A DNA stretch of 64,000 nt, taken from Bifidobacterium dentium JCM 1195 = DSM 20436 (GTDB lineage: Bacteria > Actinomycetota > Actinomycetes > Actinomycetales > Bifidobacteriaceae). The stretch covers positions 1,488,001-1,552,000 of the forward strand of contig NZ_AP012326.1 of the NCBI RefSeq assembly GCF_001042595.1, written 5' to 3'. The position numbers and the translations under genes were made by a program. Of the stretch, positions 31,481 to 40,034 are shown piece by piece. Positions within the stretch are counted from its first letter, which is position 1. Each line of letters begins with the position of its first letter. The notes under the pieces were generated by a model. It was given only the letters and a program-made list of their open reading frames with translations, was not told the origin of the DNA and did no database searches.

Positions 31481-31960
31481 TCAGACTCCCAGTTCGTCCG
31501 TATCGAAGATGATGGTCACGGGACCGTCGTTAGTCAAGTTCACGCGCATGTGGGCTCCGAAACGGCCTTCTTTCACCGCAAGGCCTTCGGCCCGCAGTGT
31601 TTCGTTGAACTGCCGCCACACCTTGTCGGCATGGTCCGGCGACCCTGCCTTCACGAAGCTTGGGCGATTGCCTTTGCGCACGTCCGCATACAACGTGAAT
31701 TGCGAGATGGAAAGGATCGAGCCGTTCACATCGTGAATGGAACGGTTCATTTTGCCGTTGTCGTCTTCGAACACACGCAGATTCGAGATCTTGTGCGCCA
31801 GCCACGCGATCTGCTTGGCGCCGTCCGAATCCTCTGCGCCGACAAGCAGCACATATCCGACGCCGATCCGCTGTGGTTCGAAGGTGGGATCCCGTTCGCC
31901 GGTGAGTTCATCAATCACATCCACGGACCCGTCGCTGACTTTCTGAAGCACAATACGCAT
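31481..31960 (-). CDS. dtd: D-aminoacyl-tRNA deacylase Dtd
   Basis: Removes D-amino acids (and glycine from mischarged tRNA-Ala) from tRNA. The 159-aa protein has both active-site signatures: SQFTLYA (residues 86-92) and the cross-subunit Gly-cisPro motif NDGPVT (144-149). The start is ATG 31960 with ribosome binding site AAGAGG. It is a useful reference for the diverged paralogue at 37888-38355, with which it shares the ILSI, FNE-LR, EGR-GA-MR and DGP positions. Confidence 0.95.
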   Translation of the reverse strand: MRIVLQKVSDGSVDVIDELTGERDPTFEPQRIGVGYVLLVGAEDSDGAKQIAWLAHKISNLRVFEDDNGKMNRSIHDVNGSILSISQFTLYADVRKGNRPSFVKAGSPDHADKVWRQFNETLRAEGLAVKEGRFGAHMRVNLTNDGPVTIIFDTDELGV

Positions 31961-37303: not shown

Positions 37304-37672
37304 CTAATAGCCATGCGCGTGCAGGTAGGCGTCGTCGAAGCCGAAGTAGTGGCCGATCTCGTGCAGCACGGTCTTGCGGATCTGCTCGACCATTTGCGCA
37401 CGGGTGGCGCATACCCGCTCGTGCGGGCCCTTGAAAATAGTGATCACGTCCGGCATCACACCGCTGTAGGCCGCGGTTCGCCGCGTGATGGCGATTCCTT
37501 CGTACAGTCCCAGCAGTTCGCCGCCCGCGTCGCACATCGTGCCCAACTCCCGCTCGTTCGGCTCCTGCGCCATGGCGATCCCCACATTCTCCAGCACCTG
37601 CTTGAACCTGTCGGGAATACCCGCGAGCGCGTCTTCGATGGCCCGCTCGAACTCGTCGTCGCTCATCTTCAT
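37304..37672 (-). CDS. Metallopeptidase family protein (zincin-like)
   Basis: A 122-aa minimal zincin. The HExxH motif is in TVLHEIGHYFGFDD near the C-terminus, with a conserved downstream Asp. The N-terminal half (DEFERAIEDALAGIPDRF) and ITIFKGPHERV are typical of this actinobacterial family, whose substrate is unknown. ATG 37672 (MKMSDDEFE) matches family starts; the frame continues upstream to 37888 without a convincing start and would overlap the divergent gene. Confidence 0.88.
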   Translation of the reverse strand: MKMSDDEFERAIEDALAGIPDRFKQVLENVGIAMAQEPNERELGTMCDAGGELLGLYEGIAITRRTAAYSGVMPDVITIFKGPHERVCATRAQMVEQIRKTVLHEIGHYFGFDDAYLHAHGY

Positions 37673-37887
37673 GTCGCCGACTTTAGCAGCTGTCTTACAG
37701 GCTTGCACCTCTCTTTGCGTCCGATTTTCTCCAGTCACTGGAGGAATCCCCTCCCCGACGAGAGCGCGGCAGCAAGGCAGCACCATGAATCCCCATCGTC
37801 CGGCCCGCCCCGCAACCCGCAATCCCGCGACCACAATTCGCTGATCACAGTCCGTGTAAAGCACTGCCGACAACCTATACTGGAACA

Positions 37888-38355
37888 ATGAGAATTTCCG
37901 TGCAACGCGTGAATGAAGCGAGCATCGCCGTTTTGAACGACCTCGGTACGCTCGATCCGACGTTCGACGTGCAGCAAATCGGTCTTGGCCTACTGTTGAC
38001 CGTCGAAATCGAACCCGACGATGACGAACCCACGATTGACATGATGGCGAACCGCGTCCTCACACTGCGTTGCTTCGACGGACCGCAAGGTTCGCTTCCT
38101 CAATCCGTGCAGGAAATCCGAGGAGAAATCCTATCCATTCCACAACCGCTCACCTCTTTGCACAGCCCCGCCACGGGACGTCCCCAACTCGTTGCCGAAG
38201 ATACCGACAACGAGCATGCCAATCTCACATGGATCCGCTTCAACGAAGCTCTCCGCTCGGGCAACGTTCCCGTATATGAAGGCCGATATGGCGCTCGCAT
38301 GCGCATTGGCTCCATCGTCGACGGTCCATTTCAGTTCACGCTCATTTCCGATTAG
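37888..38355 (+). CDS. Diverged Dtd-like protein lacking the deacylase signature
   Basis: A 155-aa paralogue of D-aminoacyl-tRNA deacylase. It aligns over its full length with the Dtd at 31481-31960: MRI-Q-V start, DPTF, GEILSI (residues 79-84), W-RFNEALR, YEGRYGARMRI and VDGP (144-147). The catalytic SQFTLYA block is replaced by PQPLTSL (85-91), and GPVT reads GPFQ. The fold is likely kept, but the classical deacylase chemistry is not expected. TATACT lies six bases before ATG 37888 with no ribosome binding site, suggesting a leaderless message. The deaminase gene follows after 37 bases and may be cotranscribed. Confidence 0.82.
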   Translation: MRISVQRVNEASIAVLNDLGTLDPTFDVQQIGLGLLLTVEIEPDDDEPTIDMMANRVLTLRCFDGPQGSLPQSVQEIRGEILSIPQPLTSLHSPATGRPQLVAEDTDNEHANLTWIRFNEALRSGNVPVYEGRYGARMRIGSIVDGPFQFTLISD

Positions 38356-38392
38356 CCGACGGACCTCCATCGCAACACACGAAAGGATTCGC

Positions 38393-39418
38393 ATGACTCA
38401 CATCAGCCCGGCCACCGAACAGGCACTGCGTAAGCTGCCGAAAGCGGAGCTTCATCTGCATATCGAAGGCACCCTCGAGCCGGAACTGGCCCTGAAACTG
38501 GCCGAACGTAACAACATCAACCTGCCGTTCGCTGATCTTGACGATCTCAAGACACACTATGAGTTCGAGAATCTTCAGTCGTTCCTAGACCTGTACTACC
38601 AACTCATGTCCGTGCTGCGCACCAGGCAGGATTTCACCGACCTCATGCTCGCCTATCTGGCACGGGCGAATGCCGATGGCGTTCGGCGGGCGGAGATTTT
38701 CTTCGATCCTCAGGTACACATGAATAATGGTCTCGATTTTGATGTGGTGCTCGATGGCCTGCTTGAGGGTCTTCGCATCGGTCATGAACGTTTCGGCATC
38801 GATGGCGGGCTCATCATGTGCATCATCCGGGATATGCCCGTCGATTCAGCCGAGGCGTTGCTTGATACCGCGGCTTCACGGGCCGGGGACCTGCTCGGTA
38901 TCGGTTTGGATTCCGCCGAAGTCGGATATCCGCCGGAACTGTTCAGTCATGTATATGAGCGTGCGGCGCGACTTGGCCTGCATCTCGTCGCGCACGCCGG
39001 CGAGGAGGGCCCGGCCGATTATGTCCGTCAGGCGTTGGACTCCCTGCATGTCGAACGCATCGATCATGGCGTTCGCACCGCCACCGATGGCGATTTGGTG
39101 GCACGAATTGCCCGTGATGGAATCGCGTTGACGGTGTGCCCGTTGTCAAACCATCGTCTGCAGGTGGTGCGGGACGTGGCCGATCTTCCGGTACGCCAAC
39201 TGTTCGACGCTGGTGTGAAGGTGACGCTCAATTCCGATGATCCCGCCTACTTCGGCGGATATATCGGCGACAATTACATCGCCATGGCACGGACCGGCAT
39301 GAGCTTGGATGAGTTGGCCACCATCGCGGAATACTCTCTGAAGTCCTCATTCGCAACCCCTGAGCAGAAAACCACTTACGCCAACGCTCTGGCCGACTGG
39401 AAGCGCATCCATCTTTAG
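38393..39418 (+). CDS. Adenosine/adenine deaminase
   Basis: A 341-aa zinc hydrolase that deaminates adenosine or adenine in purine salvage. Zinc and catalytic residues are visible in ELHLHIEGTL, VAHAGEEGP, RIDHGVR and NSDDPAYFGGY. Sequences such as SFLDLYYQLM and FFDPQVH are closer to the adenine deaminase (Aah1-like) subgroup than to mammalian-type adenosine deaminase, so adenine is the more likely substrate. ATG 38393 has AAGGA six bases upstream. It follows the Dtd-like gene. Confidence 0.9.
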   Translation: MTHISPATEQALRKLPKAELHLHIEGTLEPELALKLAERNNINLPFADLDDLKTHYEFENLQSFLDLYYQLMSVLRTRQDFTDLMLAYLARANADGVRRAEIFFDPQVHMNNGLDFDVVLDGLLEGLRIGHERFGIDGGLIMCIIRDMPVDSAEALLDTAASRAGDLLGIGLDSAEVGYPPELFSHVYERAARLGLHLVAHAGEEGPADYVRQALDSLHVERIDHGVRTATDGDLVARIARDGIALTVCPLSNHRLQVVRDVADLPVRQLFDAGVKVTLNSDDPAYFGGYIGDNYIAMARTGMSLDELATIAEYSLKSSFATPEQKTTYANALADWKRIHL

Positions 39419-39566
39419 CTCTTGAGCCGAAGTCCAGAAGACCATCATCTGGCTTCGCACGCACAAAGGCCGGATTCGCGCACATGTCGGCCGGCGGTTT
39501 CGATGATCATGAAAAGGCAAGTCAGCAACGTACAGTTGCACGTATCCAAGTAAGAGAGGAGTGATT

Positions 39567-40034
39567 ATGCCATTTTCCGTGACGCATCAGGACATCACCG
39601 GCATGCATGTGGATGCCATTGTCAACGCGGCGAATACGGACCTCATGATGGGTGGAGGGGTATGCGGCGCGATTTTCCGCGCGGCGGGAGCGAACCGCAT
39701 GCAGACCGCATGCAATCGCCTCTCCCCCATCCGTACCGGTGAGGCGGTGATCACGCCGGGATTCGATCTGCCGGCCAAGTACGTCATCCACACAGCCGGA
39801 CCGGTTTGGCATGGCGGTGACCATGATGAGGAGCAGCTGTTGCGCGCCTGCTACCGCAATTGCCTAGCGATCGCCTCCGTGCACGGCTGCAAAAGCATCG
39901 CGTTCCCGCTGATTTCCGCCGGCATCTATGGCTATCCGAAAACCGAGGCCCAGGATGTGGCCGAAGATGAGATTCAGATTTGGCTGGCCGACACCGGCAT
40001 GGACCTGGACGTTTGGCTCGTTCTGTGGCCATAG
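39567..40034 (+). CDS. Macrodomain protein (ADP-ribose binding/hydrolysing), short C-terminus
   Basis: A macrodomain of 155 aa, expected to bind ADP-ribose or deacetylate O-acetyl-ADP-ribose. It shows DAIVNAANTDLMMGGGVCGAIFRAAG, VITPGFDLPAKYVIHTAGPVW and FPLISAGIYGYPK, which are the ligand loops of the family. The chain stops within the last strand (LDVWLVLWP), so the usual final helix is missing. ATG 39567 fits AGAGAGGAG with 5-base spacing; GTG 39561 is too close to that site. It is monocistronic. Confidence 0.85.
   Translation: MPFSVTHQDITGMHVDAIVNAANTDLMMGGGVCGAIFRAAGANRMQTACNRLSPIRTGEAVITPGFDLPAKYVIHTAGPVWHGGDHDEEQLLRACYRNCLAIASVHGCKSIAFPLISAGIYGYPKTEAQDVAEDEIQIWLADTGMDLDVWLVLWP

Follow-up and report, generated by a model that had tools for sequence, protein, structure and literature searches.

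A D-type Dtd paralogue of bifidobacteria, kept by selection, with a fixed proline at the position of the oxyanion NH

Bifidobacterium dentium carries a second, motif-altered Dtd paralogue in addition to its canonical Dtd. The gene lies at 37888-38355 of the window, the whole 64,000-nucleotide stretch of DNA that was analysed, which belongs to a 2.64-Mb genome on a single contig. We refer to the kind of paralogue encoded there as D-type and to the other bifidobacterial kinds as C-type (the window's canonical copy and other signature-bearing proteins that are not B-type) and B-type. The D-type proteins form a single clade under purifying selection, have a predicted DTD fold, are paired with a C-type Dtd in all eight genomes that encode them and show fixed switches in the active site. 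The likeliest mechanism, to which we assign a probability of roughly 0.42, is that D holds the end of an aminoacyl-tRNA or an adenylate without carrying out ordinary hydrolysis. This figure applies jointly to the whole explanation, including the propositions that the D gene is genuine, that its product has the DTD fold and that it is kin to the signature-intact B subfamily.

The D-type gene and its place among bifidobacterial Dtd proteins

The features of the window that are relevant here are as follows.

31481..31960, minus strand: canonical Dtd of the window, C type, with SQFTLYA and GPVT (open reading frame, domain models, tree)
37304..37675, minus strand: Zincin_1 metallopeptidase-like gene, the divergent upstream neighbour of D (domain match)
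37888..38355, plus strand: D-type Dtd paralogue with the PF02580 fold, below the TIGR00256 cut-off (open reading frame, alignment, domain models, predicted fold)
38140..38160, plus strand: PQPLTSL, residues 85-91, replacing SQFTLYA; Pro87 corresponds to Phe89 of Plasmodium falciparum DTD (PfDTD) (sequence, PDB profile alignment)
38287..38301, plus strand: YGARM, residues 134-138, corresponding to PfDTD Phe137-Gly138 and Met141 (D alignment, PDB profile alignment)
38323..38334, plus strand: GPFQ, residues 146-149, replacing GPVT; Gly-Pro is kept in the window gene, and its Gly is Ala in B. moukalabense (sequence)
38393..39418, plus strand: adenosine deaminase gene add, 341 aa (446.5 bits with NCBIfam NF006850, which has its cut-off at 419)

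The D reading frame runs from an ATG to a TAG stop and encodes 155 aa. An earlier note on this DNA had described the protein as a second Dtd that aligns end to end with the canonical copy, and the alignment bears this out (57/156 identical, 37%, E 8e-34). The replacements that it reported, PQPLTSL for SQFTLYA and GPFQ for GPVT, were verified in the sequence, and the segments that it listed as retained (ILSI, FNE-LR, EGR-GA-MR and DGP) are indeed conserved. The D protein passes the Pfam model PF02580 with 87.1 bits (cut-off 25) and scores 70.0 bits with the NCBIfam equivalog TIGR00256, under its cut-off of 101.5; the canonical Dtd of the window reaches 164.4 bits. Five further D proteins scored 59.5-73.9 bits, so that all six tested fall short of the TIGR00256 cut-off, which is passed by all four B-like proteins tested. 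By codon usage the D gene scores poorly, at 0.143 per codon, which puts it near the 5th percentile of the genes called in the window, and a simple codon-scored gene caller did not select it. No promoter was detected in a scan of 37650-39700, and the one terminator-like site in this interval is no more than shuffled sequence yields.

Dtd matches were found in 152/189 Bifidobacteriaceae genomes by protein search and likewise by Pfam search. The remaining 37 genomes are without a PF02580 match, and 20 of these are among the 161 genomes with at least 90% completeness and at most 5% contamination; natural loss of Dtd, perhaps with another system in its place, is possible in these genomes. The B-type, with intact motifs and 44-52% identity to the window D protein, is present in 42 genomes (43 sequences), and C-type is absent by search from 39 of them. 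One genome (G028; L022, L038) carries two B-type genes and no C match. The D-type is patchy, occurring in 8/189 genomes, every one of which also has C; these eight form one clade, and the co-occurrence does not represent eight independent cases.

A tree of 94 sequences (43 B-type, eight D-type, 40 other matches and three outsiders) placed the D proteins on a single branch with support of 100/100 and a stem of 1.07 changes per site. D and B were grouped together at 99/93, and the best tree places D within B, although forcing B and D apart lowers the log-likelihood by 6.6 units and gives a tree that is not rejected (p-AU 0.287). The grouping with B disfavours an origin of D from the neighbouring C copy. 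Between two D-carrying genomes (G082 and G014; L010, L011, L078, L067), dS is 0.30 for D and 1.10 for C, which makes a later exchange of the D locus than of C probable.

For D-type proteins outside the bifidobacteria, we searched with a profile of 20 D sequences and read the best 120 of 1016 matches. The few PQP forms with names among these were from Bifidobacterium, and nameless metagenome sequences could not be placed. A crude motif reading of 138 fetched proteins gave SQFTL in 79, SQFPL in one, PQP(L/F/P)x in 53 and an odd fragment, PQHSP, in one; apart from four proteins that the script could not read, none of the 138 was intermediate between PQPL and either PQFTL or SQFTL. Plasmid records yielded seven distant matches (28-32% identity). 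In one 153-aa protein on four contigs (P0038), a B-type first part with SQFTLFA is followed by a D-type last part with DGPFQFTLQE, which reflects either recombination between B and D or a chimera made in metagenome assembly. No earlier report of a D paralogue was found in the literature searched, a scope that most subscription papers fall outside.

Active-site changes and the predicted structure

For this comparison we set 24 full-length D sequences, eight taken from genomes and 16 selected from the database (near-identical in some cases), against 43 B-type and 40 C-type sequences. Numbering was transferred by profile alignment to PfDTD, where Pro85, Gln86, Pro87 and Leu88 of the window protein correspond to Ser87, Gln88, Phe89 and Thr90, Ala111 to Ala112, Tyr134 and Gly135 to Phe137 and Gly138, and Gly146 and Pro147 to Gly149 and Pro150. 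B and C have the same fixed residue at 88 positions; in D, 36 of these are unchanged, 10 have a different residue that is itself fixed and 42 are relaxed. Switches include S85P, F87P, T88L (23/24), L38T and G40E; on the same profile alignment L38T falls at Phe40 of PfDTD, beneath the cis-Pro, and G40E adjoins Ile43, an adenine contact. Conservation of PQPLTSL had been proposed as a check on the gene, and its PQP is fixed in 24/24 sequences. The change of Ser to Pro alone is common, since several C-type proteins and outsiders that are otherwise canonical read PQFTL.

Several residues of the site are kept in D, namely Gln86, Ala111, Gly135, Met138 and Pro147. Ala111 and Gly135 are present in 24/24 sequences, as is the Pro of Gly-Pro, the Gly of which is found in 23/24. 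In PfDTD, Phe137-Gly138 and Met141 provide adenosine stacking and the 2'-OH site, and the F137A and A112F mutations in the adenosine pocket abolish activity, according to the sections of the source consulted (PMC3845328). The D adenosine pocket, made of the equivalents of Phe137, Ala112 and Gly138, is retained with Tyr at residue 134 in the window protein and in 58% of D sequences and Phe in the others seen; the YGARM site is thus conserved as Tyr/Phe-Gly...Met. D also has a one-residue insertion near the Lys107 adenine contact. Among 13 pocket positions named in the literature, seven are invariant in a 20-sequence D alignment, compared to 29 of 142 other positions (Fisher p 0.012), a rough guide given that switched residues count as invariant and that the 13 were picked after viewing the alignment.

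At the opposite end of the site, VDGPFQ of the window protein has lost the Asn and Thr of NXGP(V/F)T. The residues that follow Gly-Pro vary within D (FQ, LQ, LN, MN, MH and LL among others), and in B. moukalabense, the nearest species, Ala replaces the Gly, a residue reported as invariant across all DTD sequences in the part of the paper cited (PMC3845328). Because of this variation and the Gly to Ala change, the amino-acid end of the D site looks less constrained at the level of sequence. The D monomer was predicted to adopt the DTD fold. In the monomer models, canonical residues 88-91 are predicted as helical and D residues 89-92 as strand, with a confidence of 71-86 for D in 10-residue blocks over 81-110.

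The earlier note had also called SQFTLYA a catalytic block that is altered in this protein. The active site is changed, but the SQFTL side chains are not catalytic, since the S87P, Q88A, F89A and T90A mutants of PfDTD remain active in the results consulted (PMC3845328). The relevance of Pro87 lies in the backbone. Proline has no main-chain NH. In the mechanism proposed for DTD, the tRNA 2'-OH is the catalyst and the main-chain N atoms of Phe89 (at 3.03 A) and Thr90 (at 4.05 A) make up the oxyanion hole, as described in the portion of the source used here (PMC3845328; eLife 2013). Pro87 would therefore take away the nearer oxyanion contact, and Phe89 to Pro should be the change that matters, as it is the main-chain NH at this position that forms the oxyanion hole.

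Based on these comparisons, we propose that the D lineage may have lost the ordinary hydrolytic arrangement in genomes where another Dtd, C, covers proofreading. A D homodimer, which is probable, would still bind, in the pocket that it retains, the terminal adenosine of aminoacyl-tRNA or a different adenine nucleotide. With Pro in place of Phe89, the backbone NH that steadies the tetrahedral intermediate would be missing, and for this reason ester hydrolysis by D should be too slow to be useful. The role of D would then be to bind, compete for or sense aminoacyl-tRNA ends, and not to deacylate D-aminoacyl-tRNA. Several observations count against this proposal: Tyr at the Phe137 site in 58% of sequences, the loss of Gly in B. 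moukalabense, the insertion near the Lys107 contact, the modest model confidence over 81-110, the weak codon usage, the membership of all eight D genomes in one clade and the shortened B. adolescentis forms described below. Furthermore, RNA-based catalysis tolerates many changes, and a shifted backbone could supply another NH.

This last point leads to the alternative that survives best, in which D is still a deacylase with a rebuilt site, acts on another substrate, an aminoacyl- or modified-aminoacyl-tRNA, and forms its oxyanion hole through the Leu88 NH or a shifted loop. We consider this unlikely, but a serious contender. Gln86 and much of the adenosine pocket are retained, the chemistry needs no side chain, as the active PfDTD mutants illustrate, and the D changes are fixed and constrained rather than random. 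Additionally, the account cited (PMC5802732) offers a precedent, the Animalia-specific tRNA deacylase (ATD), in which altered motifs accompany a new specificity. Against a rebuilt deacylase, the NH removed by Pro87 is the one nearest the carbonyl oxygen in PfDTD, while the other lies a further distance away at 4.05 A in the data available from that source (PMC3845328). The variable residues after Gly-Pro and the Ala of B. moukalabense suit a site that no longer selects amino-acid chirality.

Selection on the D-type and its genomic context

A test of dN/dS had been suggested for this gene, and we fitted pairwise codon models to eight overlapping pairs of D species, which share species among them. 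Omega for D was 0.04-0.19, and omega = 1 was rejected in 8/8 pairs (2dlnL 14-114). For C over the same pairs, omega was 0.00-0.09, with D higher in 8/8 pairs for omega and in 7/8 for dN. Among the 16 D and C fits, dS was 8-10 in two and 1.96-2.6 in four, and those six omegas are rough. Because of these rough fits and the shared species, the weight rests on the close D pairs, which gave omega of 0.19 at dS 0.53, 0.10 at dS 0.30 and 0.046 at dS 0.06. Between B. dentium and B. moukalabense, D omega was 0.17, within the range of 0.03-0.34 for 14 nearby genes. D is thus kept up like an ordinary gene, and its omega, higher than that of C, indicates a somewhat weaker constraint. These results exclude a neutral pseudogene in the sampled genomes. 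Together with the predicted DTD fold and the invariant PQP, they uphold the earlier suggestion of a fold kept under selection with an altered active site.

The idea that the homologues are decaying copies received partial support from some database proteins, which look degraded, and failed for the genome copies. A protein named as Dtd of B. adolescentis (P0040; 13 member sequences, 230 contigs) is 102 aa long, is missing its N-terminal third and is altered at the conserved Ser and Gly, sites that are otherwise fixed in D, and a full-length B. adolescentis form (P0010) has 252 member sequences and 43 contigs. Two further proteins (P0048, from Bifidobacterium sp., and P0049) look frameshifted in their protein records. 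At least one species therefore seems to carry degraded D alleles, and the shortened B. adolescentis forms suggest that the D gene can be dispensable. In contrast, the D genes of all eight genomes are open and full length with no internal stop. We consider it improbable that D is a slowly decaying redundant copy, recently functional and now with no important role. Such a copy would fit the degraded forms, the omega excess of D over C, the occurrence in only 8/189 genomes and the weak codon usage; it would not fit intact genome copies, omega far below 1 even in the close pairs, or new residues fixed across the whole clade, which neutral decay would not lead one to expect. Since the sequence is still preserved by selection and the feature expected to enhance the rate is lost, D probably does a different job from Dtd.

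A further alternative holds that D is a regulatory partner of canonical Dtd, forming a C-D heterodimer with cross-subunit sites that mix the intact and the altered motif. DTD sites are built across the dimer interface in the structures covered by the cited text (PMC3845328), D is accompanied by C in 8/8 genomes, and the two genes lie 2.2-39.7 kb apart on one contig in 7/8 genomes, the window's included, despite differing genes beside D. However, C and D are only 37% identical, D groups with the B line, which is without C in 39/42 genomes, and the two genes of the window do not share an operon. We regard a partnership of this kind as slightly less probable still than decay.

The D gene had been said to start 37 bases upstream of the deaminase gene and to be coupled to it. 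In fact, D ends 37 bases before the add ATG at 38393, on the same strand (gap 38356-38392), and add adjoins D in only 2/8 D genomes. Synteny was examined together with an add search in 11 genomes, eight with D; among these eight, add is adjacent in two (the window genome and B. moukalabense, in the same order), intact elsewhere in two, in pieces or fragmentary in three and not found in one. The broken or fragmentary copies are those of G082 (L120/L123), G019 (L121) and G058 (L122), all D-carrying. A general dtd-add operon or coupling is rejected on this distribution. Elsewhere, D lies downstream of an alpha-amylase-type gene and a gene for a solute-binding protein, with a RelB-YafQ pair after it (a B. 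ruminantium record and G014) or has an ion-channel gene ahead of it on the same strand (four other D genomes), with neighbour Pfam names taken from one representative per arrangement; no neighbour common to all eight D loci was seen. A functional link of D with adenosine deaminase in purine salvage or adenosine sensing, for which the short gap, the order repeated in B. moukalabense and the largely retained adenosine pocket might speak, is very improbable because of this synteny, as other D genes stand behind an ion-channel or solute-binding-protein gene and add is broken, fragmentary or not found in 4/8 D genomes.

Comparison with known systems and significance

By its predicted structure, D shares the fold of bacterial-type DTD (PF02580, TIGR00256; E. 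coli 1jke, P. falciparum 3knf/4nbi). It differs in having PQP(L/F)x in place of SQFTL, with Pro at the oxyanion NH, and xDGP(F/L/M)x in place of NXGP(V/F)T, as well as the G to E and L to T changes beside the pocket. ATD (5xaq) reads PQATL and TNGPYTH and has Gln for Arg7 in the part of the report cited (PMC5802732). D has PQPLx, is without TNGPYTH (IVDGPFQ in the window protein) and, unlike ATD, keeps Arg7 in the window protein and in 23/24 sequences; motifs and Arg7 together rule out membership of D in ATD. The N-terminal editing domain (NTD) of archaeal ThrRS (1y2q, 4rrj) has a DTD-like fold with an oxyanion hole of main-chain nitrogens, those of Ala82 and Phe81, as given in the sections consulted (PMC4491819). 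In sequence, Pro stands at the oxyanion position in none of PfDTD, NTD and ATD as these are presented in the cited portions (PMC3845328, PMC4491819, PMC5802732). The closest relatives of D, by tree as well as by sequence, are the B-type proteins, which keep SQFTL and NDGPVT with each residue at 100% in 43 sequences, whereas D does not; B is usually alone, whereas D was found with C in 8/8 genomes.

One group has suggested, in the part of their paper cited here, that a chemistry which does without side chains kept the DTD fold from rewiring its active site and from functional expansion (PMC4491819). A constrained clade with Pro exactly at the oxyanion NH offers a natural test of two things, the need for that NH and the ability of the fold to take on another job. 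The small size of the D proteins makes this test simple, as does the control that the same genome supplies in its canonical Dtd. Tentatively, and at somewhat less than even odds, we suggest that D represents a bacterial 'pseudo-DTD' lineage that was freed from proofreading by a second Dtd, lost the oxyanion NH through a fixed Pro, largely kept the adenosine pocket and became a binder or sensor or acquired new chemistry. If this is true, the RNA-binding half of an enzyme whose catalysis is done by RNA would serve purely to bind or sense aminoacyl-tRNA ends, or new chemistry would take place there.
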